Positions 5,245-63,046 of a stretch of 64,000 bases of DNA are shown piece after piece (positions within the stretch are counted from its first letter, which is position 1; each line of letters starts with the position of its first letter). Both the position numbers and the translations under genes were made by a program. This stretch comes from a virus. The stretch spans positions 1-64,000 of IMG/VR virus record IMGVR_UViG_3300042691_009766. One strand, 5' to 3'. The notes under the pieces were generated by a model. The model was not told the origin of the DNA. It searched no databases and saw nothing but the letters and a program-made list of their open reading frames with translations.

Positions 5245-5849
5245 TGCGTGGTGGCGGAGCCGATAACGGTAAATTCAGCATAGATTATGAAGCCAAATCC
5301 ATGTATGAAGGAATTGGCGAAGAACTAGGTGCTACCGTTGGTGTAGATGTTGATTGGTGGAGATGGCAAGAGTACTACTTAAGAGACAACTATACAGACA
5401 TTGTAGATGACATCTATGATGTCTCTTCGTCTGTTCCTGAAAAAGGTAGACGCTGGATGTTGCCTATAAAAATGCCTGTAGTTATGGCTCAGTTTGTTCG
5501 TGGTACAAACGTCATGAATGAACGTGGTTTCTATGTTGTTGACACCCTACGCCTTGTAATTAACGTAGGAGAAGTAAACAGATTTTTACCTACACTTTTA
5601 ACCGATTCTAACAACCACATTAAAGATAGAATTGTGTACAGAGGAGAAGTCTTTGTTCCTACCAGAGTACTACCAAGAGGTTCTTTCGGATACCGCTGGG
5701 CAGTAGTCACCGTGGATTGTAACCAAATGAACCCCGAAGAATTGGTAAACGACCCACAGTTCCAAAACTATGCTTTGCCATCTAAATCAGAATTCAGAAC
5801 CTACGGATACGGAACAAGTACTTACGGCTCTGACCTTTACGGAGAGTAG
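5244..5849 (+). CDS. Structural protein of unknown fold, possible neck or fibre attachment
   Basis: 201 residues; the start overlaps the stop of the collagen-like fibre gene (TAATG). It is not low-complexity like its neighbours. It has a Trp/Tyr-rich N-terminal part (DVDWWRWQEYY), a central region of charged and beta-prone segments (GFYVVDTLRLVINVGEVNRFL) and a Tyr/Gly-rich tail (YGYGTSTYGSDLYGE). The position between fibre and tail genes suggests a virion component. A connector or fibre-attachment role is a guess; I do not recognise the family. Confidence 0.5.
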   Translation: MRGGGADNGKFSIDYEAKSMYEGIGEELGATVGVDVDWWRWQEYYLRDNYTDIVDDIYDVSSSVPEKGRRWMLPIKMPVVMAQFVRGTNVMNERGFYVVDTLRLVINVGEVNRFLPTLLTDSNNHIKDRIVYRGEVFVPTRVLPRGSFGYRWAVVTVDCNQMNPEELVNDPQFQNYALPSKSEFRTYGYGTSTYGSDLYGE

Positions 5850-7473: not shown

Positions 7474-7670
7474 TGGCAGCAAAAAAACCAGCAAAAAGTA
7501 AATCTAGGGTCAATGAGGCTGGCAACTATACTAAGCCAGAACTTCGTGAACGTCTATTTAAAAAGATTAAAGCAGGTACTAAGGGCGGAGACCCAGGTGA
7601 GTGGTCTGCCCGTAAAGCACAACTTCTAGCCGCAGAATACAAGAAGGCTGGCGGAGGCTACAAGAACTAA
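7473..7670 (+). CDS. Small basic protein with GGDPGEWSARKAQLL motif (DUF5872-like)
   Basis: 65 residues. The segment KPELRERLFKKIKAG followed by GGDPGEWSARKAQLLAAEY and a final AGGGY is a pattern I associate from memory with the DUF5872 type of small basic proteins in phages and environmental bacteria. A profile search would settle it. No enzymatic function is known. It is paired with the next gene, which has a similar affiliation. Confidence 0.7.
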   Translation: MAAKKPAKSKSRVNEAGNYTKPELRERLFKKIKAGTKGGDPGEWSARKAQLLAAEYKKAGGGYKN

Positions 7671-8142: not shown

Positions 8143-8419
8143 GAAGTTTGGACCCTATAAGGGCTCTAAAGCCAATGGTGGCAGACCAATCTATGTCTAC
8201 AAAACTAAGCAAAAAGATGGTACTTGGAAAACCACAAGTAAAAATAAGGCTAGAGCAGACTACGAAAGCAAACATGGTAAACTGAGTAAAGATACTGATG
8301 TTGACCATAAAGATAATGGTGGGCGTAAAGGTCGGGATGGCATGAAAAACCTTCAAGCCATGAGCCACTCTAAGAACGTGGCTAAAGAGAACAAGCGTAG
8401 AGCAGGAAAGAAGAAGTAA
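8129..8419 (+). CDS. HNH-like small basic protein (96 aa)
   Basis: The segment VDHKDNGGRKGRDGMKNLQ followed by AMSHSKNVAKEN matches the layout of HNH_3-type nuclease cores (V-D-H-x-D-G ... N-L-x-x-x-S-x-x-N-N). The first His of the pair, the N-L and the downstream Asn are present. The C-terminus is RRAGKKK. It could be a small HNH endonuclease or a derived DNA-binding protein. No other nuclease domain is attached, and its place in the basic cluster is unusual for a homing nuclease. Confidence 0.55.
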   Translation: MAETKKFGPYKGSKANGGRPIYVYKTKQKDGTWKTTSKNKARADYESKHGKLSKDTDVDHKDNGGRKGRDGMKNLQAMSHSKNVAKENKRRAGKKK

Positions 8420-8743
8420 ATGGCAGTAACTAAAAAGACCTTAGCCAAAGACACCAAGAAATACGCAGGTCAAACAGTCCGATTTCGTGCAACTAAAGAA
8501 GTTGCAAAACAAACAGGCGTAGAAGGTAAGTCCTGGAAAGATGCTAGAGATTTTACTCCTAAGCAAGAAAAGGCTTATAGAGCGTTTAATAAGGCTGATA
8601 GGGAACTTGGTAAAGGTGTAGGAGAAAAAGTTACACCTAGAAGTAAGGGTCAAAACACTAAAATTACTAAGAGAGTCAACCAGTCTATTGTTGCTCGTGG
8701 CGGCAAGCCAGTAAAGACTTACACAAAGAAAGCAGGTAAGTAA
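8420..8743 (+). CDS. Small basic protein (107 aa)
   Basis: Starts directly after the previous stop. Strongly basic, Lys/Arg/Thr-rich; motifs RFRATKEVAKQTGVEGKSWK and TPKQEKAYRAFNKADREL suggest a central helix pair. The tail KTYTKKAGK is encoded by a purine-rich run (GCAGGTAAG) that can act as the ribosome site for the next gene. Function unknown. Confidence 0.7.
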   Translation: MAVTKKTLAKDTKKYAGQTVRFRATKEVAKQTGVEGKSWKDARDFTPKQEKAYRAFNKADRELGKGVGEKVTPRSKGQNTKITKRVNQSIVARGGKPVKTYTKKAGK

Positions 8744-36275: not shown

Positions 36276-36703
36276 AATTCTTCAAACGCAAAAAGCCTAA
36301 ATACGCCAAGATTACTTCCGTCAAACAGATAAAGGCTCATCTTCGAGAGTTCATCCTAGACTCTCAGATACCTGATGGCGATGCAATTAGCGTAGAACTA
36401 GGTTGTTCTCCCGTTAGCGAAGAAGTGTTGGAAAGAGAGCATGAAGAAAGCGATGCTCGTGTAGAAAAGATAGGGTTCTTAGTTCCTTTGCTATATGGCT
36501 ATGCCGCTTTATTTTCTGAGGCGTTTGTTTCCGTATCACCATCGGCTCATGACCACGAAAACCCAGAAATGGAAAAATTTTACGACCACATTGCCGAGAT
36601 AACTAAGCATGCACTGAAAGAGCCAATGGCTCATTTATTAGTGGGTTCAATTTCACAGATGGTAGATTTAGGTCTACTAGAAATACCGAAAGGGAAACGA
36701 TGA
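36272..36703 (+). CDS. Unknown protein after polymerase (143 aa)
   Basis: I prefer GTG 36272 (GTGA overlap, GGGGAG 12 bases upstream) over ATG 36257. The N-terminus is basic (KFFKRKKPKYAKITS), the rest acidic and helical, with a hydrophobic stretch FLVPLLYGYAALFSEAF and a C-terminal MAHLLVGSISQMVDLGLLEI helix. No catalytic motif. Unknown; possibly a polymerase-associated factor given the strict coupling. Confidence 0.6.
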   Translation: MKFFKRKKPKYAKITSVKQIKAHLREFILDSQIPDGDAISVELGCSPVSEEVLEREHEESDARVEKIGFLVPLLYGYAALFSEAFVSVSPSAHDHENPEMEKFYDHIAEITKHALKEPMAHLLVGSISQMVDLGLLEIPKGKR

Positions 36704-37083
36704 ATAACGCAGATTGGTGGGCTAAAAAATTAGGCACCCAACCACAAACTCAAGTTGGTCGACCTGACCCTACACCTCCTATGCCTCCGAGCCAGCAACC
36801 ATTGCCTCAGATGCCTTCCTTTCAGCCCGTCAAAGACCCAGCAGAACGTGCTCAAAGTGCAAAGCAAACGCAGACGTGCCCTGACTGCGGTTCTGCCAAT
36901 TACATGGCGGTTCAAAATGCTGCGGCACGCTGTTATGATTGCGGGTATCCCATTCAGCAATCAGGCTCACGGTATGGCACTCTTGCGGGGGCTCATATCG
37001 AGGGTGGCGTCAGTCAAGCGGCAGGAAACAACTCGCAAAGTAATTACAACCCACAACAAATCATTGGAAGGATTGGAGAATAA
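36700..37083 (+). CDS. Zinc-ribbon protein (127 aa)
   Basis: ATGA overlap. The first 50 residues are Pro/Gln-rich and likely disordered (PDPTPPMPPSQQPLPQMPS). A zinc ribbon follows: CPDCG at about 61 and CYDCGYPI at about 79. The C-terminal tail is Gly/Asn/Ser-rich. Looks like a scaffold-type protein for the replisome or transcription; role unknown. Confidence 0.65.
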   Translation: MNNADWWAKKLGTQPQTQVGRPDPTPPMPPSQQPLPQMPSFQPVKDPAERAQSAKQTQTCPDCGSANYMAVQNAAARCYDCGYPIQQSGSRYGTLAGAHIEGGVSQAAGNNSQSNYNPQQIIGRIGE

Positions 37084-37271
37084 TGGCAACAACAGAACAA
37101 CTAGATAGACTTCAGGAACTAACTTGGATTATGGCTAGAGCCCGTATGGTGACTATCCTTGTCCAAAACGGTCTGGTCGAAGTATCCCCAGAGGGCAACG
37201 CAGGTTTTTACCGAGGCGATGAGTGGGTTTCCATTTACGACTTGTTTGGAGAATTAAATGAAAACAATTGA
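37083..37271 (+). CDS. Small acidic protein (62 aa)
   Basis: TAATG start. Single mixed alpha/beta domain: helix LDRLQELTWIMARARMVTIL followed by YRGDEWVSIYDLFGEL. The end overlaps the next small gene by 14 bases. Unknown. Confidence 0.6.
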   Translation: MATTEQLDRLQELTWIMARARMVTILVQNGLVEVSPEGNAGFYRGDEWVSIYDLFGELNENN

Positions 37272-37395
37272 GTGGATAACTTTTGCAATTTTTATTACTA
37301 CCATAATAACCTCATTGATTTGGGCTTTGGCATGGTCTCTTTCTACCAGTGCCCGACTCACAAGCGAACTTAGAAAAAAGGAAAAGAATGGTTAA
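37258..37395 (+). CDS. Single-span membrane microprotein (45 aa)
   Basis: ATG at 37258 inside the end of the previous gene; 45 residues. Residues 6-28 (hydrophobic, ITFAIFITTIITSLIWALAW as core) form one membrane helix, followed by a basic tail SELRKKEKNG. The end overlaps the RecA start, and its AAAAAGGAAAAG is the RecA ribosome site. A membrane anchor or spanin-like role is conceivable but not shown. Confidence 0.55.
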   Translation: MKTIEWITFAIFITTIITSLIWALAWSLSTSARLTSELRKKEKNG

Positions 37396-38431
37396 TGCAG
37401 ATGCCATGAAAATCATGGCTCAATTAAATAAGCGATTCGGTGATAATACAGTCGTAATGGCTGGAAACATACGTTCCGAGTTGATTAAACGCATGACCAC
37501 AGGCAGCACAACCTTCGACTACATTCTTGGCGGAGGGTTTCCTAGCAATCAGTGGAACGAATTAATCGGTGAGCCATCTCATGGCAAAACTGCAATCGCT
37601 TTGAAAACCATTGCCGCCAACCAACAGAACGACCCAGAGTTCATAACTGTATGGGTAGCCGCAGAACAATGGGTTCCAGAGTATGCGGAAATGTGTGGCG
37701 TAGATATAAGTCGTGTAATAGTAGTTGAGACCAACATCATGGAAGAAGCGTACGATGCAGTCATAGCATTTGCCGAATCAAAATCAGTAGATGCCATAGT
37801 AATCGACTCTTTGCCAGCCCTAGTCCCTGGTCCAGAAGATGAAAAGACTATGGATGAGTTTACAGTTGGTCGTGGAGCATTACTTACAAACAAGTTTTTC
37901 CGCAAGGCTGGTGCCGCAATGAAGCGTAGCCTGACCGAAAATGAACGCCCAATTCTAGGCATCATTATTAACCAGTGGCGTATGAAGATTGGCGTGATGC
38001 ACGGTGACCCTCGCACAACCCCAGGCGGTGTAGGTAAAGACTATGCGTTCTTCACTCGCTCAGAGGTAAAGCGTGATGAGTGGATTGAAGCAGGAACAGG
38101 CGTAAATAAAATGCGTGTAGGTCAGCGAATTAAAATCCGCACACTAAAGAATAAGACGGCTCCGCCTAGTCGTACCGCATACCTAGACTTCTATTTCTCT
38201 GACCATAGCATTTATTCTGCGGGAGATTACGATGTCGCTAAAGAAGTTGCGGCTATGGCAATAGTGAAGCAGATAGTTGACCGTAAAGGTGGCTGGATTT
38301 ACTATGCAGACCGTAAATGGCAGGGTCAAGAGGCTCTTGTTAATTCTTTGCGTGAAGAGGTAGACTTCTTTGATGAGTTACGAGATAAAGTACTTACAAC
38401 ACCAGATAGTTTTGTAGGAGAGGAAGAGTAA
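37388..38431 (+). CDS. recA: RecA / UvsX-like recombinase
   Basis: ATG 37388 gives 347 residues; earlier codons belong to the overlapping small gene. Walker A is GEPSHGKT at 61-68, after a TGSTTFDYILGGGFPSNQWN stretch typical of RecA. Walker B-like DAIVIDSLPAL follows at about 138, then the MKRSLTENERPILGIIINQW region that corresponds to loop L2/core. It catalyses strand exchange with the ssDNA-binding protein and SNF2 helicase. The N-terminal oligomerisation helix seems shorter than in bacterial RecA. Confidence 0.9.
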   Translation: MVNADAMKIMAQLNKRFGDNTVVMAGNIRSELIKRMTTGSTTFDYILGGGFPSNQWNELIGEPSHGKTAIALKTIAANQQNDPEFITVWVAAEQWVPEYAEMCGVDISRVIVVETNIMEEAYDAVIAFAESKSVDAIVIDSLPALVPGPEDEKTMDEFTVGRGALLTNKFFRKAGAAMKRSLTENERPILGIIINQWRMKIGVMHGDPRTTPGGVGKDYAFFTRSEVKRDEWIEAGTGVNKMRVGQRIKIRTLKNKTAPPSRTAYLDFYFSDHSIYSAGDYDVAKEVAAMAIVKQIVDRKGGWIYYADRKWQGQEALVNSLREEVDFFDELRDKVLTTPDSFVGEEE

Positions 38432-38658
38432 TGGAATTTGACCAAAAATGGGCGGAAGACCTCGAAAGAAGTTATGAAGAGTATCTTTGGGACTGTGAAG
38501 CCTCGATAGATGGAGAAGAGTCGGAGGACTTTGCAACTTTATCGGGTGAACCGTTTGATGGGTGCAGTACTTGTTACACCCGTGAACAGTTATTCTTTTT
38601 AATCCCAAGAATTATCAAAGCCTATAAAGAGGGTAAGATTACTGTTAATGAAGAGTGA
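38431..38658 (+). CDS. Small acidic protein (75 aa)
   Basis: TAATG coupled to recA. Acidic, helical N-terminus (WAEDLERSYEEYLWDCEAS), then CSTCY and a helix LFFLIPRIIKAYKEGKI. Its end overlaps the nuclease gene. Unknown. Confidence 0.6.
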   Translation: MEFDQKWAEDLERSYEEYLWDCEASIDGEESEDFATLSGEPFDGCSTCYTREQLFFLIPRIIKAYKEGKITVNEE

Positions 38659-38968
38659 AGGTCAAAAGAACTCGCAAAAACACGAGAAACGTCTAGCCAA
38701 AGCAATTAATGGTAAAACTAATGCTGGCTCTGGGGCGTTCTGGTCCCGTAAAGGAGACGTCAGAAGCGATAGTATTTTGATTGAACACAAGTGGACTGGT
38801 AAACTATCCAAGACCATACACTCCAAAGATTTAAAGAAGATAACTAATGAAGCGATTATGGATGGAAGACTGCCAGTGTTTGGCATCCATCTTGATGGCG
38901 AAGACTATGTTATTCTTTTGGAAACTGACTTTTTAGAATTGTGGAATAAAGTTGAAACTACCTTATGA
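38648..38968 (+). CDS. PD-(D/E)XK nuclease, Holliday-junction-resolvase-like
   Basis: 106 residues. N-terminal basic helix QKNSQKHEKRLAKAI, then AGSGAFWSRKGDVRSDSILI followed by EHKW: the pattern G-S-G ... G-D-V-x-x-D ... E-x-K is the catalytic core of Hjc/VRR-type PD-(D/E)XK enzymes. The small size suits a resolvase or mismatch-type nuclease. It lies between recA and the first whiB gene. It likely processes recombination intermediates. Confidence 0.72.
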   Translation: MKSEGQKNSQKHEKRLAKAINGKTNAGSGAFWSRKGDVRSDSILIEHKWTGKLSKTIHSKDLKKITNEAIMDGRLPVFGIHLDGEDYVILLETDFLELWNKVETTL

Positions 38969-39302
38969 TGACGACTACTCTTGGTTTGATGAGGCGGCTT
39001 GTGCCGCTAAAGGAGTAGACCCAGAGATTTTTTATCCACCAAGAGATAAAGATTTATACAGGCAACAGGCAGATGAAGCAAAGGGGTATTGTTATGGAAC
39101 AGTTGGAAGACCGCCATGCCCAGTCAGGACTAGGTGTCTGTGGCAAGCAGTTAGAACAGATGAACAACATGGAATTTGGGGCGGAATGTCCCACAGAGAA
39201 CGTAACGCTTACATCCGTAAGTGGCAACGACAGTATAAAAACAAAATGACATTAAAGGAATATGTCTTTTTAGGAAAGGAATACAACAATGGCAGTAACT
39301 GA
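38952..39302 (+). CDS. WhiB-like protein with atypical Cys spacing
   Basis: TTG start at 38952; an in-frame stop lies at 38934-38936 and the only near ATG is out of frame. 116 residues. Cys 17, 47, 56 and 62 would bind the [4Fe-4S] cluster; the spacing is C-x8-C-x5-C instead of the usual C-x2-C-x5-C, because GTVGRPP is inserted. The turn HGIWGG (about 73-78) is the Wbl signature. The C-terminus is basic (NAYIRKWQRQYKNK). Wbl proteins modulate sigma factor activity in actinobacteria; a phage copy could redirect or block host transcription. Confidence 0.88.
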   Translation: MKLPYDDDYSWFDEAACAAKGVDPEIFYPPRDKDLYRQQADEAKGYCYGTVGRPPCPVRTRCLWQAVRTDEQHGIWGGMSHRERNAYIRKWQRQYKNKMTLKEYVFLGKEYNNGSN

Positions 39303-40140
39303 TGCAGAACTAAAGAGGTTCTTGGACGCAAAGAAAACTAAATCACGTCTACTAGGCGACATTGAACGCTACTTACAGAAGCGTCCAGCAGGGGATAGAA
39401 GCACTACTGTTCTCCACCCTTCAGAGATTATCAAAAAGGATTTCTGTATCCGTGGGTCTTATTTCCTCATGCGTGGTCACACAAAGGTGGCTGCAAACCC
39501 TGGGCTAAAACTTCAGAGCATATTTGATACAGGGCATCAAATTCACGCCAAATGGCAATCATGGTTTCAAGACATGGGCGTTCTACACGGCAACTTTAAG
39601 TGTCTTGTATGTAATAAATTGACTTGGGGAACTTCACCTCAAGCGTGTGAGCACTGTGGTCGACCAGACCGCCTAGAGTACGCCGAAGTAACTCTAAAAG
39701 ACGACAACTTGCGTATCGCTGGGCACACCGATGGCTGGATTAAAGGAATTGGTAACGACACTTTAATTGAAATTAAGTCAATCGGTGCAGGAACAATTCG
39801 TTATGGTCAGCCATCACTTTTGGCGGATGCTGATGGAGATTTGTTCAAAGCATGGGGCAGAATCACTCGACCATTTTCTGACCACATTTTGCAGGGTCAG
39901 GTTTATCTTGAACTGATGAACCGCATGGGTCATGACATTAATGAGATTGTATTTTTGTACGAACTTAAGGCTGACCAATCGTTCAAGGAGTTCTCAGTGA
40001 AGCGTGACTTTGAACTTGTAAGACACATTTTTGACAAAGCCCAAAAAGTAATCGATGCGGTAGACGCTTCTACTGAACCCGCTTGCACCAACAACCCAGG
40101 CAGTACTTGCCCACAATGCTCACCGTATAGCGAGGATTAA
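39289..40140 (+). CDS. RecB/Cas4-like PD-(D/E)XK exonuclease
   Basis: 283 residues. HPSEIIKKDFCIRGSYFLM opens the domain, a four-Cys zinc site (CLVC and CEHC, about residues 106 and 121) is inserted, then IAGHTDGWI and LIEIKSIG provide the catalytic Asp and Glu-x-Lys. The C-terminus has ACTNNPGSTCPQCS, which with the early Cys of KDFCIRG could bind an Fe-S cluster as in Cas4/AddB. It lies with recA and resolvase genes. Likely generates ssDNA ends for recombination. Confidence 0.85.
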   Translation: MAVTDAELKRFLDAKKTKSRLLGDIERYLQKRPAGDRSTTVLHPSEIIKKDFCIRGSYFLMRGHTKVAANPGLKLQSIFDTGHQIHAKWQSWFQDMGVLHGNFKCLVCNKLTWGTSPQACEHCGRPDRLEYAEVTLKDDNLRIAGHTDGWIKGIGNDTLIEIKSIGAGTIRYGQPSLLADADGDLFKAWGRITRPFSDHILQGQVYLELMNRMGHDINEIVFLYELKADQSFKEFSVKRDFELVRHIFDKAQKVIDAVDASTEPACTNNPGSTCPQCSPYSED

Positions 40141-57658: not shown

Positions 57659-58327
57659 CTATTTACTCTCTGTTATCTTGTTCAGCAAACGCTGGAACTC
57701 TCTAATCCCTAGGGATACACTCCCTGATTGACTAATGATGTAATCCTGCTCGGTAGCACCATCATCGTAAGTTTGCCATTGACCATCAACCCTGACGCTA
57801 ACAAGGGCGGTTTCCGCAATCGCATTACCCAGTAGCACTACCAAGTTCTTTTTGATTGTTTCAGCAGTGTTATCCGCTTGCTCTCTTGCAACGCCCAACT
57901 TGTTTTCCTGAATAAGTCTTCTGCGATTTGCTTCAGCATCACGCTTCTCCTGCTCAATACGATTAGCCTCAGCCTCAGCATCCAAACGAGCCTGTTCAAC
58001 TACCCAAACACTCTCGTAATCATCAGCCTTGGCTATGAAGTCTCTTGCCCTGATTACCCGATAGTGATTAGTTTCACCACCTGTGGGGTTGGGGCGTTTT
58101 TCAAGAACCAAATACCCTACATCTTTAGTTCCGCCAAATACCCTCTGAAATCTACTAATGTCTGCACCAACCCCATAGCCAGTGTGGTAGAGATGAGTGT
58201 CGTATAGATGGACAAAGATAACTCGGCTTGGGCTAATGTCTTCCAAACGCTTCTCGGTGCTTCTCTTGCCCTGAGGCACAACAGCCCACCTAACATCTGG
58301 AGTTTTTAGAATGTCTTTACTTTGCAT
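57659..58327 (-). CDS. Coiled-coil protein (222 aa)
   Basis: N-terminal domain (residues 1-100) with VRWAVVPQGKRSTEKRLEDI and a beta-rich middle (VIFVHLYDTHLYHTGYGVGA). About residues 105-150 form an alpha-helical charged region (EQARLDAEAEANRIEQEKRD, then AEANRRRLIQENK). C-terminal domain ALVSVRVDGQWQTYDDGATE. It lies under the first copy of the 42-bp element and is separated from the VWA gene. Unknown function. Confidence 0.6.
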   Translation of the reverse strand: MQSKDILKTPDVRWAVVPQGKRSTEKRLEDISPSRVIFVHLYDTHLYHTGYGVGADISRFQRVFGGTKDVGYLVLEKRPNPTGGETNHYRVIRARDFIAKADDYESVWVVEQARLDAEAEANRIEQEKRDAEANRRRLIQENKLGVAREQADNTAETIKKNLVVLLGNAIAETALVSVRVDGQWQTYDDGATEQDYIISQSGSVSLGIREFQRLLNKITESK

Positions 58328-58351: not shown

Positions 58352-58393
58352 TCACTATTGGGTCAGCAGGTTATCTTATTGTTAGTTCCCAAA
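58352..58393 (-). promoter_or_regulatory. 42-bp conserved start-associated element, copy 1
   Basis: Core runs TCACTATTGGGTCAGC to GTTAGTTCCCAAA on the + strand, with 3 differences from copies 2-4. Lies 25 bases upstream of the 58327 start on the leftward strand; AATAGT is its -10-like hexamer. See findings. Confidence 0.75.
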
Positions 58394-58456
58394 GTTTCTA
58401 GGTGTATGAGGGAGGGTAGGTGCTGAGGAGGCATACCACTACCACCCTCACCACCC

Positions 58457-60403
58457 CTAGTAGGTTAGATGACGAGCAATCGCCATCTCCACTAGAGAAC
58501 GACCTAGATGAACTAAGTCGCTGGCATTACGAACATGGCATACCACTTCTGCACCATGCAAGTTCTGTTCTTTTAGGTCAATCTTGTAAGGTGTAAGCCA
58601 TGCTAACGAGGTAAGAACGCCACCATCTCGCATGTTGCGGATACTCTCCTCACTCTTTTCTAGGGCATCAGGGTTCCACTCACCATCAGTTATGACGATT
58701 AGCAGTTTCACTGCACGATTGCTATTGGCAAATAAGCCTTGAGCATACTGCAACGCTTTAGTTGGGTTCGTGCCACCATGAGTTCCTATGTAAGTCATAG
58801 TGTCTTTAGCCCGTTCATCAGGGCTGTAAAGGGTCATTGCATTATCGCTGTATGCCACCACACTTGTTGTGGCGTTGATTACATCCAACGCTTTTTTGAT
58901 TGCCCACATACTCTCGGAGGCATCTCTAATCATGCCACCCATAGAGCCAGATACATCCAGTAGGACAACCGCTTCAATGTCTGTGGCATCAGCCCTACCA
59001 TTCTCGTAGCGGTCAAATGCTTCTTCAAAGTCGCAACCCTGTTCCCAGCGAGACGGGTTGATACGCCCAGTCTCTACTCGGTAGTTCCAAGCAGGGTCAT
59101 ACTGAGAACGCAACCTACGAAGTTCAGTTGCAAACGCCTCTGCACCATCAACCGCTGTTGGAGATACCTCAACTTCTGAGGCATACTTGTATTTAGGCGG
59201 GTCAGGCAATCTCTCACCCTCAAGCAACACATCACCATTGTAGATGTCTATGTCTCTGGCGAGTTTATCGTCAAGGCGGTCAAGCACCTCGTCTAGTGCC
59301 TCTAGCAAAGTGTCTTCCAGTTCTTTCTGCAACTGCTCTAGTTCTTCGGTGTTCTTACCCGAACCGCTACTGCCTTCAGGAGTATCTTGCCCTGAGTTTG
59401 AGCCATCATTACCCTCGTCATCTGAACCTGAACCAGAACCATCTTTGTCCTCGTCATCTGAACCAGAACCAGAACCATCCCCGTCCTCGTCCTCGTCATC
59501 TGAACCAGAACCAGAACCATAACCATCACAGCCATCATTGGTCTCGTCATCCGAGCCAGAGCCATCCTCGTCCTCGCCATCCCAGTCATCATCAGTATCT
59601 ACATCATCATACGGGCTATCGTCTTCTTCAACATCTTCGGAAGCCTTGGTCTGCTTACCTCTAGGCAAGCAACCGCTGTTGATGTCTGTGCCATGCTCAT
59701 CCTCAGGTCTGCTGTCGTGTCCATGAGGGTTTTCCATCTCCAAATCTTGGGTAAGCCCATGGTAGCGAAGCACCAAATCTTTAGCGGTGTCGTAGTTATC
59801 AGGGTTGCCCATGTCTAAGGCTCGGAACTGGTCAATGATGACTTCAAGTTCAGCCACTCGGTCAGGATAAACAAACATGTCTCTAGCAAGTTTGCGAACT
59901 TGCTTGTCCAGATACTTACGACCATGAACTAACGGGAACGCTGACTCGTAGTGGTGAGACGAGGCTAGAAGATACTGGTTCATGGTTGCAATAAACCAGT
60001 CTCTAATGCTCGGATACAGGGCTATCAACTGGCTCTCTATACGCTGGTCTTCCAAAGCGTTCCATGCCCTAGACAACTTGTTCTCAATCACCCAATCTCT
60101 AAACTCGTTGCCAACACGAGGGCTTAGGAGGATGTGGCTAATCTCATGCAGGGTCAAGCCCTTTAGCGAAGCCACACCAGCCTTGGTTGTGAGGTCAGCG
60201 ACTAGGTTCTCCTGAAACCAAATGCGGTTGCTATCCGAGAACGCTGGTGCTGAACCTACCCTGCTCAGTTTTACGCTGATAGGTCGCAGGGTGAAACTGG
60301 ACGAGAACGATTGGATTACTTGCACCATACGAAGCAAGCGTTCTCTGTTGCGGTTTGCTAATAACTGCCTGTTATTTTGGATGTCTAGGTATTCATGTTG
60401 CAT
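58457..60403 (-). CDS. VWA-domain protein with HEISH metal motif (CobT/MoxR-partner-like)
   Basis: 648 residues. An HEISH motif (86-90) with a downstream Glu region (NALEDQRIES, about 115-124) is a zincin-like metal site. A very acidic Ser/Gly/Asp repeat (about residues 255-345) holds copies of GSGSDDEDEDG. A C-terminal von Willebrand A domain has DVSGSMGG (from 483) for MIDAS metal binding and VITDGEW later. It is encoded beside a MoxR-type AAA ATPase. Such pairs act as chaperone-type machines, for example in metal insertion or complex remodelling; the phage target is unknown. Confidence 0.85.
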   Translation of the reverse strand: MQHEYLDIQNNRQLLANRNRERLLRMVQVIQSFSSSFTLRPISVKLSRVGSAPAFSDSNRIWFQENLVADLTTKAGVASLKGLTLHEISHILLSPRVGNEFRDWVIENKLSRAWNALEDQRIESQLIALYPSIRDWFIATMNQYLLASSHHYESAFPLVHGRKYLDKQVRKLARDMFVYPDRVAELEVIIDQFRALDMGNPDNYDTAKDLVLRYHGLTQDLEMENPHGHDSRPEDEHGTDINSGCLPRGKQTKASEDVEEDDSPYDDVDTDDDWDGEDEDGSGSDDETNDGCDGYGSGSGSDDEDEDGDGSGSGSDDEDKDGSGSGSDDEGNDGSNSGQDTPEGSSGSGKNTEELEQLQKELEDTLLEALDEVLDRLDDKLARDIDIYNGDVLLEGERLPDPPKYKYASEVEVSPTAVDGAEAFATELRRLRSQYDPAWNYRVETGRINPSRWEQGCDFEEAFDRYENGRADATDIEAVVLLDVSGSMGGMIRDASESMWAIKKALDVINATTSVVAYSDNAMTLYSPDERAKDTMTYIGTHGGTNPTKALQYAQGLFANSNRAVKLLIVITDGEWNPDALEKSEESIRNMRDGGVLTSLAWLTPYKIDLKEQNLHGAEVVCHVRNASDLVHLGRSLVEMAIARHLTY

Positions 60404-61776
60404 TAGTTGTTCTCCTCTAGGTTGATGTTTAGGTCTCGTGCAATGTTTTCCCGCTGAGTATCAAGGTGCATAGACACAGCCTCTCTCTCCTCTGGTGAGA
60501 AGTTAGCGAGAAAGCGGTTGATTGCAAACTGGAAGTTGTATGTCTTCGCTTGCTTGACGAAGTTCAGCAACATACGAAGACCAACTCTGGTCTTGTGCCT
60601 TGCTGGTTCACTCTTGGATAAGTAGCGGAGGGCGGTTGCAATCTCCAGCAACGCTGGACTTGGTATCAACTGCTTCTCAATCTCAGGGTCATCATCAAAC
60701 TCAATCTTCACATTGAAGCGGTCAATCAAGGCTGGGTCTTGCTGACGAGTGCCAACATACCTTGACCCGACATTCTGGTCAGCAATGAAGATAGTGTTTG
60801 GGTGAACAGGGATGACCTCGTTCAGCGTTTCAATCTGCAACTGCTTCTCCTCTAAGATACCTAGGAAGAGAGTTGAGTTAGCAGGAAGCATACGGCTAAA
60901 CTCGTTGAGCAAGACGATGCCGCCATGCTTGATGATTGTGGCAAATCGTGAATAGTGCCAGTCCCAACCACCAGTGCCATTTGGCAATAAGCGACCCTCA
61001 GTTTCCGCCTTGGACAGCGAGCCATCCATTTCCAAACGAACATAAGGAAGCCCCAAGTGTGAAGCAAGGTTGATTGTTGCCTGAGTTTTACCTACACCAG
61101 CCTCACCAGAGAGCAGGAAGTTATCTCCAGCCTGAATACCACGAGTGAACATGTCTATCTCGTCAATCCCGTCAATCTTACGCTGGATGTGGAAAGGCTT
61201 TTCAGGAACGCTGAGTTTTGCCCAATAGCGAGGTGCTTGACCAGTAGTAATCATCTCAGCCACAGGTTCGGAAGTTGTCCCAACACAAACCTCTTCGGCT
61301 ACTGGCGGTGCAGATACAGGGGTCTCCTGAGTAATCGCCACCGATACTGGTGAAACATAGGTGTTTGACTTAGCGTATCTCGCCAGATGTTCTGGCTTGT
61401 GGTCAATGGTGTTGAATAGTTCTTGTGCCATGGTGTCCCACCTCACATCAGTAGTGCTGGTCTGGTCTTGAACTGCACGAGCCAACTTCTGCAATAGCGT
61501 AGTTGGTCTGCCAATCATGATGTCCCGTTCATCACTAGCAGTGATGAATAATGATACGGGCTTGCCGAGCATGACTTCATCTTCGGCTTTGAGCCAAAGT
61601 TCAGCACGACCCGTTCTGGATACTGGCATCCAAGCCCCAGCCACACCACGCAACTTGGTATCATTACCAAGACTACGGGTGTAAATCAAAGGCTCTCTCC
61701 CATGAACATCAGGGATGAAAGCGGTTTGGCGAATACCATTTACCGCATGATTAGATTGCAAGATTGTTGCATACAT
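60403..61776 (-). CDS. MoxR-type AAA+ ATPase
   Basis: 457 residues. The first 200 residues form a non-ATPase domain. Walker A is GEAGVGKT (224-231). Walker B is IVLLNEFSR (287-295), with Asn where most AAA+ proteins have Asp; the catalytic Glu is kept. Then NSTLFLGILEEKQLQ, IADQN (sensor 1) and ALIDRFNVKIEF (Arg finger). This layout is close to MoxR/CobS/GvpN proteins. It partners the VWA gene downstream and lies under copy 2 of the 42-bp element. Confidence 0.88.
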   Translation of the reverse strand: MYATILQSNHAVNGIRQTAFIPDVHGREPLIYTRSLGNDTKLRGVAGAWMPVSRTGRAELWLKAEDEVMLGKPVSLFITASDERDIMIGRPTTLLQKLARAVQDQTSTTDVRWDTMAQELFNTIDHKPEHLARYAKSNTYVSPVSVAITQETPVSAPPVAEEVCVGTTSEPVAEMITTGQAPRYWAKLSVPEKPFHIQRKIDGIDEIDMFTRGIQAGDNFLLSGEAGVGKTQATINLASHLGLPYVRLEMDGSLSKAETEGRLLPNGTGGWDWHYSRFATIIKHGGIVLLNEFSRMLPANSTLFLGILEEKQLQIETLNEVIPVHPNTIFIADQNVGSRYVGTRQQDPALIDRFNVKIEFDDDPEIEKQLIPSPALLEIATALRYLSKSEPARHKTRVGLRMLLNFVKQAKTYNFQFAINRFLANFSPEEREAVSMHLDTQRENIARDLNINLEENN

Positions 61777-61805
61777 GTTTTACCTCCTCAGGTTTTGTTG
61801 TTGCT

Positions 61806-61847
61806 TCACTATTGGGTCAGCAAGTTATTTGATTGTTAGTTCCCAAA
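61806..61847 (-). promoter_or_regulatory. 42-bp conserved start-associated element, copy 2
   Basis: Full match to the core, ends one base before the stop codon of the 61848 gene. Lies 30 bases upstream of the MoxR start at 61776 on this strand, leader with GAGGAGGT. Confidence 0.8.
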
Positions 61848-62339
61848 CTATTCTGTCCAGATGTATTCATAACTGACGGGTGCTTCCCCTGTATCCTCCA
61901 CCCAACCGAACTGCGAATACCATGCGTAGTTCTTACATAGCAACGCTAGTCGGTGTGATGAAATAATGCTCTCCAACAAATCTCCGTCATACATCCATGA
62001 CGGGAGAGTTATTGGTTGCTCATCTCTTACGAGATTGAGTTTGAGTGCTTGCTCGTAAGTGCGTTCAGCCTTGTCGTAGATAGTTGATTTATACCCACGA
62101 GCCTTCCACTCAAATACCATAGCCCCAATGTAATCCAGCAAGGCGTTCTCATGTCCTCGCCACATCTTTACGGCAGGGTGATTACGCCAGCCCTTAGGCT
62201 CTCGCTTGTTGCCCTCAGGGTCAAGAGCAAGGTTGGTCATCATGATTTGCCAACCCTCTAACGCTTGCTTGTTGAGGCGTTGATTATCCAGCACTGAGGC
62301 AACCTCAGTGAAATCTGCGTATGGCAGGAATGTTTGCAT
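61848..62339 (-). CDS. MSMEG_6728-like / pyrimidine-dimer DNA glycosylase-like protein
   Basis: 163 residues. MQTFLPYADFTEVASVLDNQ, RLNKQALEGWQIMM, then GWRNHPAVKMWRGHENALLD and RGYKSTIYDKAE match the MSMEG_6728/Pyr_excise family (related to T4 endonuclease V). The N-terminal catalytic Thr of DenV is not present after Met, but the family motif W-R-N-H-P-A is. Could be a DNA-repair or DNA-binding enzyme. Under copy 3 of the 42-bp element. Confidence 0.82.
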   Translation of the reverse strand: MQTFLPYADFTEVASVLDNQRLNKQALEGWQIMMTNLALDPEGNKREPKGWRNHPAVKMWRGHENALLDYIGAMVFEWKARGYKSTIYDKAERTYEQALKLNLVRDEQPITLPSWMYDGDLLESIISSHRLALLCKNYAWYSQFGWVEDTGEAPVSYEYIWTE

Positions 62340-62358
62340 TAGTCCTCCTCAGGTCTAT

Positions 62359-62400
62359 TCACTATTGGGTCAGCAAGTTATTTGATTGTTAGTTCCCAAA
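62359..62400 (-). promoter_or_regulatory. 42-bp conserved start-associated element, copy 3
   Basis: Full match to the core. Overlaps the last codons of the 62389 gene (stop at 62389-62391) and lies 20 bases upstream of the 62339 start. Confidence 0.8.
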
Positions 62401-62631
62401 GTCTTCGGGTTCGTCCCATGTTTCTTCAGGGTATAACGACACGCCCTCAGCATTGGTGTTGCCCGTTTCTTCTGTCCAGAACTCAGGCAAGAAATCGGTA
62501 GTGTTATCCAACATCTCCCAATAATCACCTATGCCCTCGGCTACCATACGGATAGCCTCCACAGCACTCTCGGCTTCTACCTCTGTTTGATACCAGATGG
62601 TCGCTTTCTGTTGCACCTTGTATGTTCCCAT
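62389..62631 (-). CDS. Small VEAxS-type acidic protein (80 aa)
   Basis: KATIWYQTEVEAESAVEAIR is the shared V-E-A-x-S core with strand-helix layout, then Asp/Trp-rich acidic tail. The last residues (F-G-N and stop) are encoded inside copy 3 of the 42-bp element, so the element constrains this protein's end. Paralogue of the genes at 57126-57648. Confidence 0.6.
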   Translation of the reverse strand: MGTYKVQQKATIWYQTEVEAESAVEAIRMVAEGIGDYWEMLDNTTDFLPEFWTEETGNTNAEGVSLYPEETWDEPEDFGN

Positions 62632-62879
62632 TAGTTCTCCTTTACGAACTTGGCAAAGCCAATCAGCATGTCGTAGTTGCTCTCAATCTGCTCACACAAG
62701 AAGTCTGCCCAATAGTTTTCCATGGCTTCCCAGACAATTATGTCCTCATCATCAACTTCCGTTCCAATGTCCTCCAAGCGTTCAATGACTTCTTCGTAAG
62801 TAAGTTCGCCCCACTCACTCAACACCAAGCCCATAGCCTTTTGCTTACACTCTTCAATGATTTCAGGTGATAGTTCCAT
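62631..62879 (-). CDS. Small acidic helical protein (82 aa)
   Basis: Helical and acidic: SPEIIEECKQKAMGLVLSEW, ELTYEEVIERLEDIGTEVDD. C-terminal VWEAMENYWADFLCEQIESN, ending FVKEN over the ribosome site. Unknown. Confidence 0.58.
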   Translation of the reverse strand: MELSPEIIEECKQKAMGLVLSEWGELTYEEVIERLEDIGTEVDDEDIIVWEAMENYWADFLCEQIESNYDMLIGFAKFVKEN

Positions 62880-62983
62880 TAGTATCCTGCTTTCTCTAAC
62901 ATTGCTAGTAGTTTCTTCAATGTTTCCTCGTCAAGTGAAGCGATTGCTTCCTCGTTGATTGCTTCTTTACCGAACTCTTCCAT
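62879..62983 (-). CDS. Small acidic helical microprotein (34 aa)
   Basis: ATG 62983 with AAGGAGG upstream; 34 residues, acidic helix EEAIASLDEETLKKLLAMLE. First gene after copy 4 of the 42-bp element. Probably real because of the ribosome site and element. Unknown. Confidence 0.55.
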   Translation of the reverse strand: MEEFGKEAINEEAIASLDEETLKKLLAMLEKAGY

Positions 62984-63004
62984 GTTGCCTCCTTGTTGTT
63001 GTTC

Positions 63005-63046
63005 TCACTATTGGGTCAGCAAGTTATTTGATTGTTAGTTCCCAAA
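63005..63046 (-). promoter_or_regulatory. 42-bp conserved start-associated element, copy 4
   Basis: Full match to the core. Lies 22 bases upstream of the 62983 start; leader reads AACAACAACAAGGAGGC. Ends two bases before the stop codon of the 63049 gene. Confidence 0.8.

Follow-up and report, generated by a model that had tools for sequence, protein, structure and literature searches.

A 42-bp element at the heads of leftward phage operons, probably a dispersed promoter, with copies in Rhodoluna-like bacteria

Results

A 42-bp element stands ahead of leftward operons

The stretch of DNA analysed here, called the window, comprises 64,000 nucleotides (positions 1 to 64,000; G+C 0.44) of the 70,390-bp IMG/VR virus record IMGVR_UViG_3300042691_009766. 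Towards its end lie leftward genes for a MoxR-like AAA ATPase, a VWA-domain protein, a pyrimidine dimer glycosylase-like protein and several smaller proteins, preceded by copies of a 42-bp element (Table 1). A first-pass annotation had reported four copies, of which copies 2-4 are identical and copy 1 differs at three bases. They end 24, 29, 19 and 21 nt before the leftward starts at 58327, 61776, 62339 and 62983, each with a ribosome site. These four copies are real, and they belong to a larger set. At up to three mismatches, the 70,390-bp record gave 16 matches, every one of them on the minus strand, and a backwards control pattern gave none, placing the element far above chance. A further IMG/VR contig (L001) is identical to the record over a 9,107-base overlap and reaches past its end. 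When the two were joined, we counted 17 full copies, of which those in Table 1 are four, and seven solitary copies of the first 15 bases (box A), all leftward in window terms.

Leftward genes were called on this joined region, and the gaps between them were counted from the first element-led gene to the 222-amino-acid gene behind copy 1, leaving out one doubtful 38-amino-acid TTG frame. A full element is found in 17 of the 18 wide gaps (at least 35 nt) and in none of the 15 tight junctions (at most 13 nt; Fisher test, 1.5e-8), one of which holds a solo box A. The element thus marks operon heads. The upstream neighbour of the first wide gap is a doubtful 43-amino-acid frame. In all 17 full copies the end of the element lies 19-47 nt ahead of the next start codon, and about 48 called leftward genes, several of them short and uncertain, follow the 17 elements. 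The element contains stop codons in all three frames, and the stop of the upstream gene falls inside it at 10 of the 17 full copies (one of these genes being a doubtful 37-amino-acid frame); in copy 3, TAA at element position 10 ends an 80-amino-acid gene.

Table 1 Positions of the element copies, their parts and the neighbouring genes in the window
Feature	Position	Strand	Remarks
Element copy 1	58352..58393	-	Before the 222-aa gene and a run ending in XRE and WhiB; kept before the ortholog in L109
Element copy 2	61806..61847	-	Before the AAA (MoxR-like) ATPase gene, which overlaps the VWA gene; kept in L109
Element copy 3	62359..62400	-	Before the pyrimidine dimer glycosylase-like gene; L109 counterpart has box A only, joined to ATG
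Element copy 4	63005..63046	-	Before the 34-aa acidic gene and two overlapping genes
Box A of copy 1 (positions 1-15)	58379..58393	-	Columns 2-12, 14 and 15 invariant in 38 phage copies
Box A of copy 2	61833..61847	-	Same column conservation in 38 phage copies
Box A of copy 3	62386..62400	-	Same column conservation in 38 phage copies
Box A of copy 4	63032..63046	-	Same column conservation in 38 phage copies
Proposed -10 (AATAGT) of copy 1	58354..58359	-	Aligned hexamers in related phages
Proposed -10 of copy 2	61808..61813	-	Aligned hexamers in related phages
Proposed -10 of copy 3	62361..62366	-	Aligned hexamers in related phages
Proposed -10 of copy 4	63007..63012	-	Aligned hexamers in related phages
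WhiB gene, 110 aa	54212..54544	-	PF02467; second candidate regulator
XRE gene, ClgR-like, 82 aa	54677..54925	-	HTH_3; candidate regulator
222-aa gene, first behind copy 1	57659..58327	-	No Pfam or PHROGs family
GC-rich hairpin, possible terminator	58400..58456	-	No T run; between VWA gene and copy 1
VWA-domain gene, 648 aa	58457..60403	-	PF13519
AAA ATPase gene, 457 aa	60403..61776	-	PF07728; phrog_249
Pyrimidine dimer glycosylase-like gene, 163 aa	61848..62339	-	PF03013
34-aa acidic gene behind copy 4	62879..62983	-	From gene calls

Read leftward, the commonest form of the element is TTTGGGAACTAACAATCAAATAACTTGCTGACCCAATAGTGA, in which AATAGT occupies positions 35-40. Positions 2-15, 20-24, 29-38 and 40-42 never vary among the 17 copies, leaving 16-19, 25-28 and 39 as the variable columns between 2 and 42. 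Since eight of these nine columns fall within the eight spacer columns (hypergeometric chance 9e-8), the sameness of the copies is not merely a matter of recent copying. The flanks upstream of the copies show no kinship, and downstream there is a weaker bump of conservation, with A at position 47 in 15 of 17 copies and C at position 48 in 16 of 17. Selection on the element, as claimed in the first-pass annotation, is therefore seen on parts of it; the 42 bp are a composite of box A, a changeable middle, TGACC and the proposed -10, not one uniform unit.

The gene run behind copy 1 is tightly packed and reaches the ClgR-like XRE gene and the WhiB gene. The hairpin between the VWA gene and copy 1 has a folding energy of -25.9 kcal/mol, equalled by 4 of 200 mononucleotide shuffles, and a GC-rich hairpin also occupies the equivalent gap of a relative, L013 (-29.7 kcal/mol; 1 of 200 shuffles as low); both fit a new transcription start at this place. 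The VWA protein has a long acidic stretch of Asp/Glu/Ser/Gly repeats N-terminal to its VWA domain (window 59388-59588, minus strand). No tRNA genes were found in the window, L001 or L010. Among the small leftward genes there is also a second repeat, CACCTGAGCAAGTGNCTAAACTGCTC, in or adjoining gaps that lack the 42-bp element (L001 7364-7389, 9163-9188 and 9340-9365), with a diverged form in the related phage contig L109 (1774-1800 and 1874-1900). Strong GC-rich hairpins are found in non-coding gaps of the array on L001 (about 7480-7600, 5756-5830 and 8360-8425), two of them directly after a solo box A.

Related phages carry diverged versions of the element

Strict and moderately relaxed element patterns matched L001 alone in IMG/VR. 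Relatives were also sought through ribonucleotide reductase (best 80 of 148 loci, 77-100% identical), and the element at up to three mismatches was absent from each of 28 of their records, many of which are fragments; contig L014, among them, is the same phage and ends before the array. Sixteen arms of these relatives with at least five leftward gaps were then compared for operon-head repeats of any kind, four loci with too few gaps being excluded. The best shared word reached three gaps (of 15 in one arm and of 5-6 in three small arms) and, on the other strand, 5 of 18 gaps (a T run) and twice 4 of 23, as against 15 of 18 in this phage.

It was a scan with the VWA protein that led to L109, which carries a diverged element set of its own. 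Its proteins are 77% (AAA ATPase), 79-81% (VWA), 88% (glycosylase), 71% (WhiB), 52% (XRE) and 46% (222-amino-acid protein) identical to those of this phage. Searching with a pattern built from the two sets, TTGGGAACTAAYAAN{12,14}TGACC, added two more phage contigs with diverged sets, L111, several elements of which are letter-identical to those of L109, and L114. A lone match, L112, was judged to be chance (a single copy with no -10-like hexamer) and was left out of the counts. In L109 the full element occupies 13 of the 14 wide gaps up to the 222-amino-acid gene and none of the 13 tight junctions. Full copies lie at gene junctions in both phages, and the random placement inside genes that would have spoken against the first-pass proposal was not seen.

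We aligned the 17 copies of this phage with 21 distinct copies of the relatives, a typical one being TTTGGGAACTAACAACCTGTTAGTGTCCTGACCTTATAGTGA. Over the 38 copies, 20 columns are invariant (2-12, 14, 15, 21, 22, 29, 31-33 and 41), and at columns 18, 20, 23 and 35 the two phage types have no letter in common. Common to both types are box A, most of TGACC and the spacing, while the middle is wholly different. In the relatives, the middle forms an inverted repeat with box A (positions 4-14 against 18-28, on average 8.5 of 11 positions, compared with 4.4 of 11 in this phage); in this phage, AAnTAAC is instead repeated directly at a distance of eleven bases (5.7 of 7, compared with 2.2 in the relatives). 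As all copies within a phage are of one type, the middle must have changed in concert.

An ortholog could be detected in L109, L111 or L114 for 11 of the 17 first genes, and in nine of these cases the 140 bp upstream contain a full element. The comparison backs the earlier proposal that the element would head the AAA/VWA operon, the glycosylase gene, the 222-amino-acid gene and the small acidic gene. One of the two exceptions is without any element. The other is the glycosylase gene of L109, where box A directly abuts the ATG, two bases past the stop of the upstream gene, a junction such as deletion of the element, with coupling of the gene to its neighbour, would leave. A similar deletion could be the origin of the solo box A copies.

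The element has a -10-like hexamer and no standard -35

The best match to TATAAT starts at position 35 in both phage groups (4.06 and 4.00 of 6). In this phage, the hexamer at 35-40 has A second and T sixth in all 17 copies, and in the relatives the hexamers aligned with AATAGT (TATAGT, TATGAT, TATGGT and others) have T first in 21 of 21 copies and A second with T sixth in 14 of 21. This agrees with the leftward promoter predicted earlier, with its putative -10 at AATAGT. The observation that no standard -35 box is visible was likewise borne out: there is no TTGACA-like hexamer at positions 11-17 of the alignment and no -35 at the 16-18 bp upstream of the -10-like hexamer expected of a standard sigma-70 (SigA) promoter, and a sigma-70 scan of the L001 array gave 7 sites, compared with 13.0 in shuffles. 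A search for a phage sigma factor, limited to region 2 (PF04542), found none in 14 records, with 10 of 14 control genomes positive. Given the few sigma-70 sites and the lack of sigma region 2 in these records, we consider an activator that acts together with host RNA polymerase the most likely option.

The element's reverse strand reads TCACTATTGGG, which we take to resemble a promoter for a T7-like RNA polymerase; the single-subunit RNA polymerase family PF00940 had no match in the record, nor any in the controls. An antisense terminator was also considered and set aside; the L001 minus strand had two copies flagged as such, with weak stems.

Two genes of this phage are visible candidates for the factor, the XRE gene and the WhiB gene, and neither is proven. 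NCBIfam ClgR is the top family by score for the XRE proteins, yet at 54.9 bits for this phage and 65.5 bits for the other phage's protein it stays below the equivalog cut-off of 170, making them ClgR-like only; ClgR structures are at the top of the structure ranking too. At 52%, identity between the XRE proteins of the two phage types is lower than that of most neighbouring proteins.

Rhodoluna-like bacteria carry the element before a rare gene pair

In bacteria, searched with one genome per species, the strict element pattern had no match and the two-set pattern matched three contigs. One of these (L115, Thermoflexus) was treated as chance, being a lone match without a -10-like hexamer, and was left out of the counts. 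The others come from metagenome-assembled genomes of an uncultured member of the Micrococcales (L116), on a contig that also encodes ribosomal protein L11 (Pfam), and of a Rhodoluna sp. (L117). In each, a single full copy precedes a small gene; the two small genes are similar, encode 101 and 94 amino acids, respectively, and are followed by TPR genes of 490 and 487 amino acids. A second such locus in the Rhodoluna sp. genome (L120) has the element before an 88-amino-acid gene and a further TPR-like gene. Of its 42 positions, the L120 copy shares 38 with window copies 2-4, and its spacer is of the type seen in this phage, whereas the other copy of the same genome has the spacer type of the related phages. 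All three bacterial copies, in these two Rhodoluna-like genomes, lie 100-150 nt ahead of the start codon.

The locus is rare. Both genomes belong to one genus, in which the pattern at up to two mismatches occurs in 2 of 67 genomes, at three places (control 0); it was found in 1 of 398 genomes drawn from the family, and the small protein in 4 of 299, two of the four matches being weak. Another genome of the genus (G280) has the small-protein gene with a diverged upstream region and no element. The small proteins form a zinc-ribbon-like family (L116 4658-4963, L117 417-701 and L120 1385-1651) paired with the TPR gene and with a divergent RHH/ParE module, of which Pfam names two RHH proteins in L116 and the ParE toxin in L120, the rest being read by eye. 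No NCBIfam or PADLOC family covers the small protein, and its Pfam matches are weak and sub-threshold only. It is not encoded in the phage loci compared (E up to 1); one weak match lies in a Curtobacterium phage. G+C of these bacterial contigs is 0.46, compared with 0.44 for the window.

Other repeats occur in more distant relatives

In contigs L058 and L061, the leftward-sense arm (about 36300-39800) has up to 20 dispersed copies of CCCGGAANNNANAAY, many of them at distances of 46-51 bases; the long region that holds them codes for little and also abounds in six-base palindromes. We do not claim that box A is akin to the dispersed CCCGGAAAATATAAT-like repeats of L058, L061 and L036, because the first match came from a regular expression inspired by box A and, with a profile trained on the L058 set alone, box A scores about as shuffles do. 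In L017, a 24-base sequence, AAGAAAGAAAAGGTGATACCCATG, which includes the ribosome site and the start codon, stands in three exact copies before leftward starts and is another start-associated repeat in a relative. Rightward-sense intergenic repeats of the form TAACGGAAAGGGCGCCCGGAAAAT or TTAACGGAGTGGACGCCCGGAAAAT are found in L036 and L061, with similar ones in L021.

Discussion

Copy number, strand, operon-head placement, conservation in related phages and concerted change can all be read directly from these sequences. On this basis the 42-mer probably serves the phage as a dispersed promoter, in which the -10 lies at positions 35-40, a factor-bound box A replaces the -35 and the middle is changeable and operator-like. 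Promoter activity, the start site, a factor at box A and the identity of that factor are what we infer. Transcription would begin downstream of the -10, probably near position 47, where the A/C bump at positions 47-48 fits a start site. The near-constant box A (TTGGGAACTAAYAA, about -45 to -32) would take the place of the -35, presumably bound by a factor through which host RNA polymerase is recruited or gated, and the middle (positions 16-28) would be a second, changeable half-site; one type of middle per phage is expected if the middle tracks the specificity of a trans-acting regulator. A single factor would then govern 17 transcription units and about 48 leftward genes and, with the ClgR-like XRE and WhiB genes in the run behind copy 1, feedback is possible.

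Several observations count against this account. One wide gap in this phage, of 246 nt, has no element, nor do one wide gap of the L109 array and a later gap of 114 nt. The -10 of this phage starts with A, and 7 of the 21 hexamers in relatives are without A second or T sixth (TAAGAC, TTAGAT, TGTAAT); one bacterial copy reads AAAGGT at the -10 site. Offset 19 scores 4.00 against TATAAT in this phage, never with A second and T sixth. A promoter leaves the hairpin bias of the variable tetramers (see below) unexplained and assigns no role to the seven solo box A copies. Finally, the phage genome is incomplete, so that the regulator may sit elsewhere.

A structured RNA leader was promising within this phage. 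Here 24-29 and 38-43 would form a hairpin, CCCAA (32-36) in its loop would pair with UUGGG (positions 2-6), and the resulting intergenic pseudoknot would govern translation or RNA processing. The TTGGG/CCCAA arms, already described in the first-pass annotation, exist and are invariant in all 17 copies; the variable tetramers favour the hairpin (permutation 0.016; the eight tetramers against random ones, 0.0002 with the commoner flank and 0.05 with the other), which reaches -3 kcal/mol or lower in 12 of the 17 copies and in all three bacterial copies, one of which also keeps the five loop pairs. The related phages fail to keep it, with the five loop pairs in 0 of 21 copies and the hairpin at -3 kcal/mol or lower in 7 of 21, and for this reason the conserved RNA structure was rejected and the arms are probably not functional. 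Moreover, in this phage no pair is changed on both sides, the hairpin is 76% paired, RNAalifold recovers only the five invariant pairs and the element has no Rfam match. We therefore regard an RNA leader as unlikely.

Slightly less likely still is a repressor site or stoperator, where a bound repressor would block transcription and the true promoters would lie elsewhere. The many oriented, asymmetric copies, the solo box A copies, the ClgR-like XRE gene behind copy 1 and, in the relatives, the inverted repeat of box A and middle would all suit such a site. There is, however, one element per operon head, at a constant distance from the -10-like hexamer in both phage types, and the sigma-70 scan of the L001 array fell below its shuffles; a repressor site within a promoter would in any case fit the promoter reading as well. 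It would be more surprising if the repeats were primarily recombination seams, that is, boundaries for the exchange of small genes with a secondary role as promoters. Stops in three frames, the upstream stops inside the element (10 of 17, with the reservation made above), the survival of box A alone in seven places and the deletion-like junction of box A with the glycosylase ATG in L109 are what seams might leave behind. Yet recombination alone predicts neither the operon-head rule nor the fixed spacing nor the -10, the element is retained before orthologous genes in nine of 11 cases, and exchange may be a by-product of a repeated promoter.

The sequence of the element is unnamed in the literature searched, a search that did not use the letters of the 42-mer and did not cover most subscription journals, and it is unnamed in the accessible parts of PMC3203893, PMC12699233 and PMC11373665. 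As described in two of these papers (PMC3203893, PMC11373665), the extended start-associated sequences (ESAS) of cluster K mycobacteriophages are about 46-47 bp long, intergenic and oriented, and contain an imperfect inverted repeat, with a consensus that varies by subcluster; they are putative SigA promoters, interpreted as putative promoters in Adephagia, and their role is still termed unclear. Going by these descriptions, the element resembles ESAS in its many intergenic copies of a single orientation before gene starts in the non-structural half of the genome. It differs in its sequence, its restriction to operon heads, its copies in bacterial genomes and its lack of a SigA-like -35 and -10 17-18 bp apart, having the -10-like hexamer only. 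As to the imperfect 15-17-bp inverted repeat that cluster K has upstream of the start, positions 4-14 match 18-28 at 8.5 of 11 in the relatives and at 4.4 of 11 in this phage, which has a direct repeat instead. Nor is there a start-associated sequence (SAS) at the start codon: the 13-bp SAS (GGGATAGGAGCCC), expected 3-9 bp before the start, was not seen by eye in the 17 leaders, where no separate pattern search was run. Cluster K ESAS are the nearest known kind, and the element is a variant of that kind, not an ESAS.

Early promoters of phage T4 have -35 and -10 boxes for host sigma-70. Like them, and like the promoter-early stem-loop (PeSL) cassettes of T4-type phages, the element is a near-identical sequence repeated among small early genes and may have spread with gene exchange; unlike PeSL cassettes, it has no conserved stem-loop. 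T4 middle promoters, in which a MotA box replaces the -35 with a -10 downstream, are similar in having a factor box, although the box is different. Stoperators of cluster A mycobacteriophages are 13-bp repressor sites. The element shares with stoperators (named in PMC3203893) the form of a short, asymmetric, oriented repeat with many copies per genome, and differs in being 42 bp long and in having a -10-like hexamer at a fixed distance.

The Rhodoluna-like bacteria are plausible hosts, a link that we infer, and the phage probably infects freshwater actinobacteria. Most interesting is the presence of the element, in both of its spacer types, before a rare gene pair of the host. Tentatively, phage and host locus may be part of one control circuit, in one of two ways. 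The phage's own activator would switch on the host small-protein/TPR pair during infection, in which case the pair would be phage-sensing and perhaps defensive or parasitic; or phages would have acquired the promoter at a locus of this kind and amplified it until each operon had one. If this is true, in either way, promoter specificity would be part of the contest between phage and host, visible as concerted change of the spacers. With one promoter type at nearly every operon head, the whole regulon of an uncultured phage may be readable from sequence alone, and the wholesale change of the middle between relatives would be a natural experiment in which a regulator and a dozen or more sites shift specificity together. 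Through the bacterial copies, in turn, a connection of infection with a host gene pair in freshwater actinobacteria can be tested directly.

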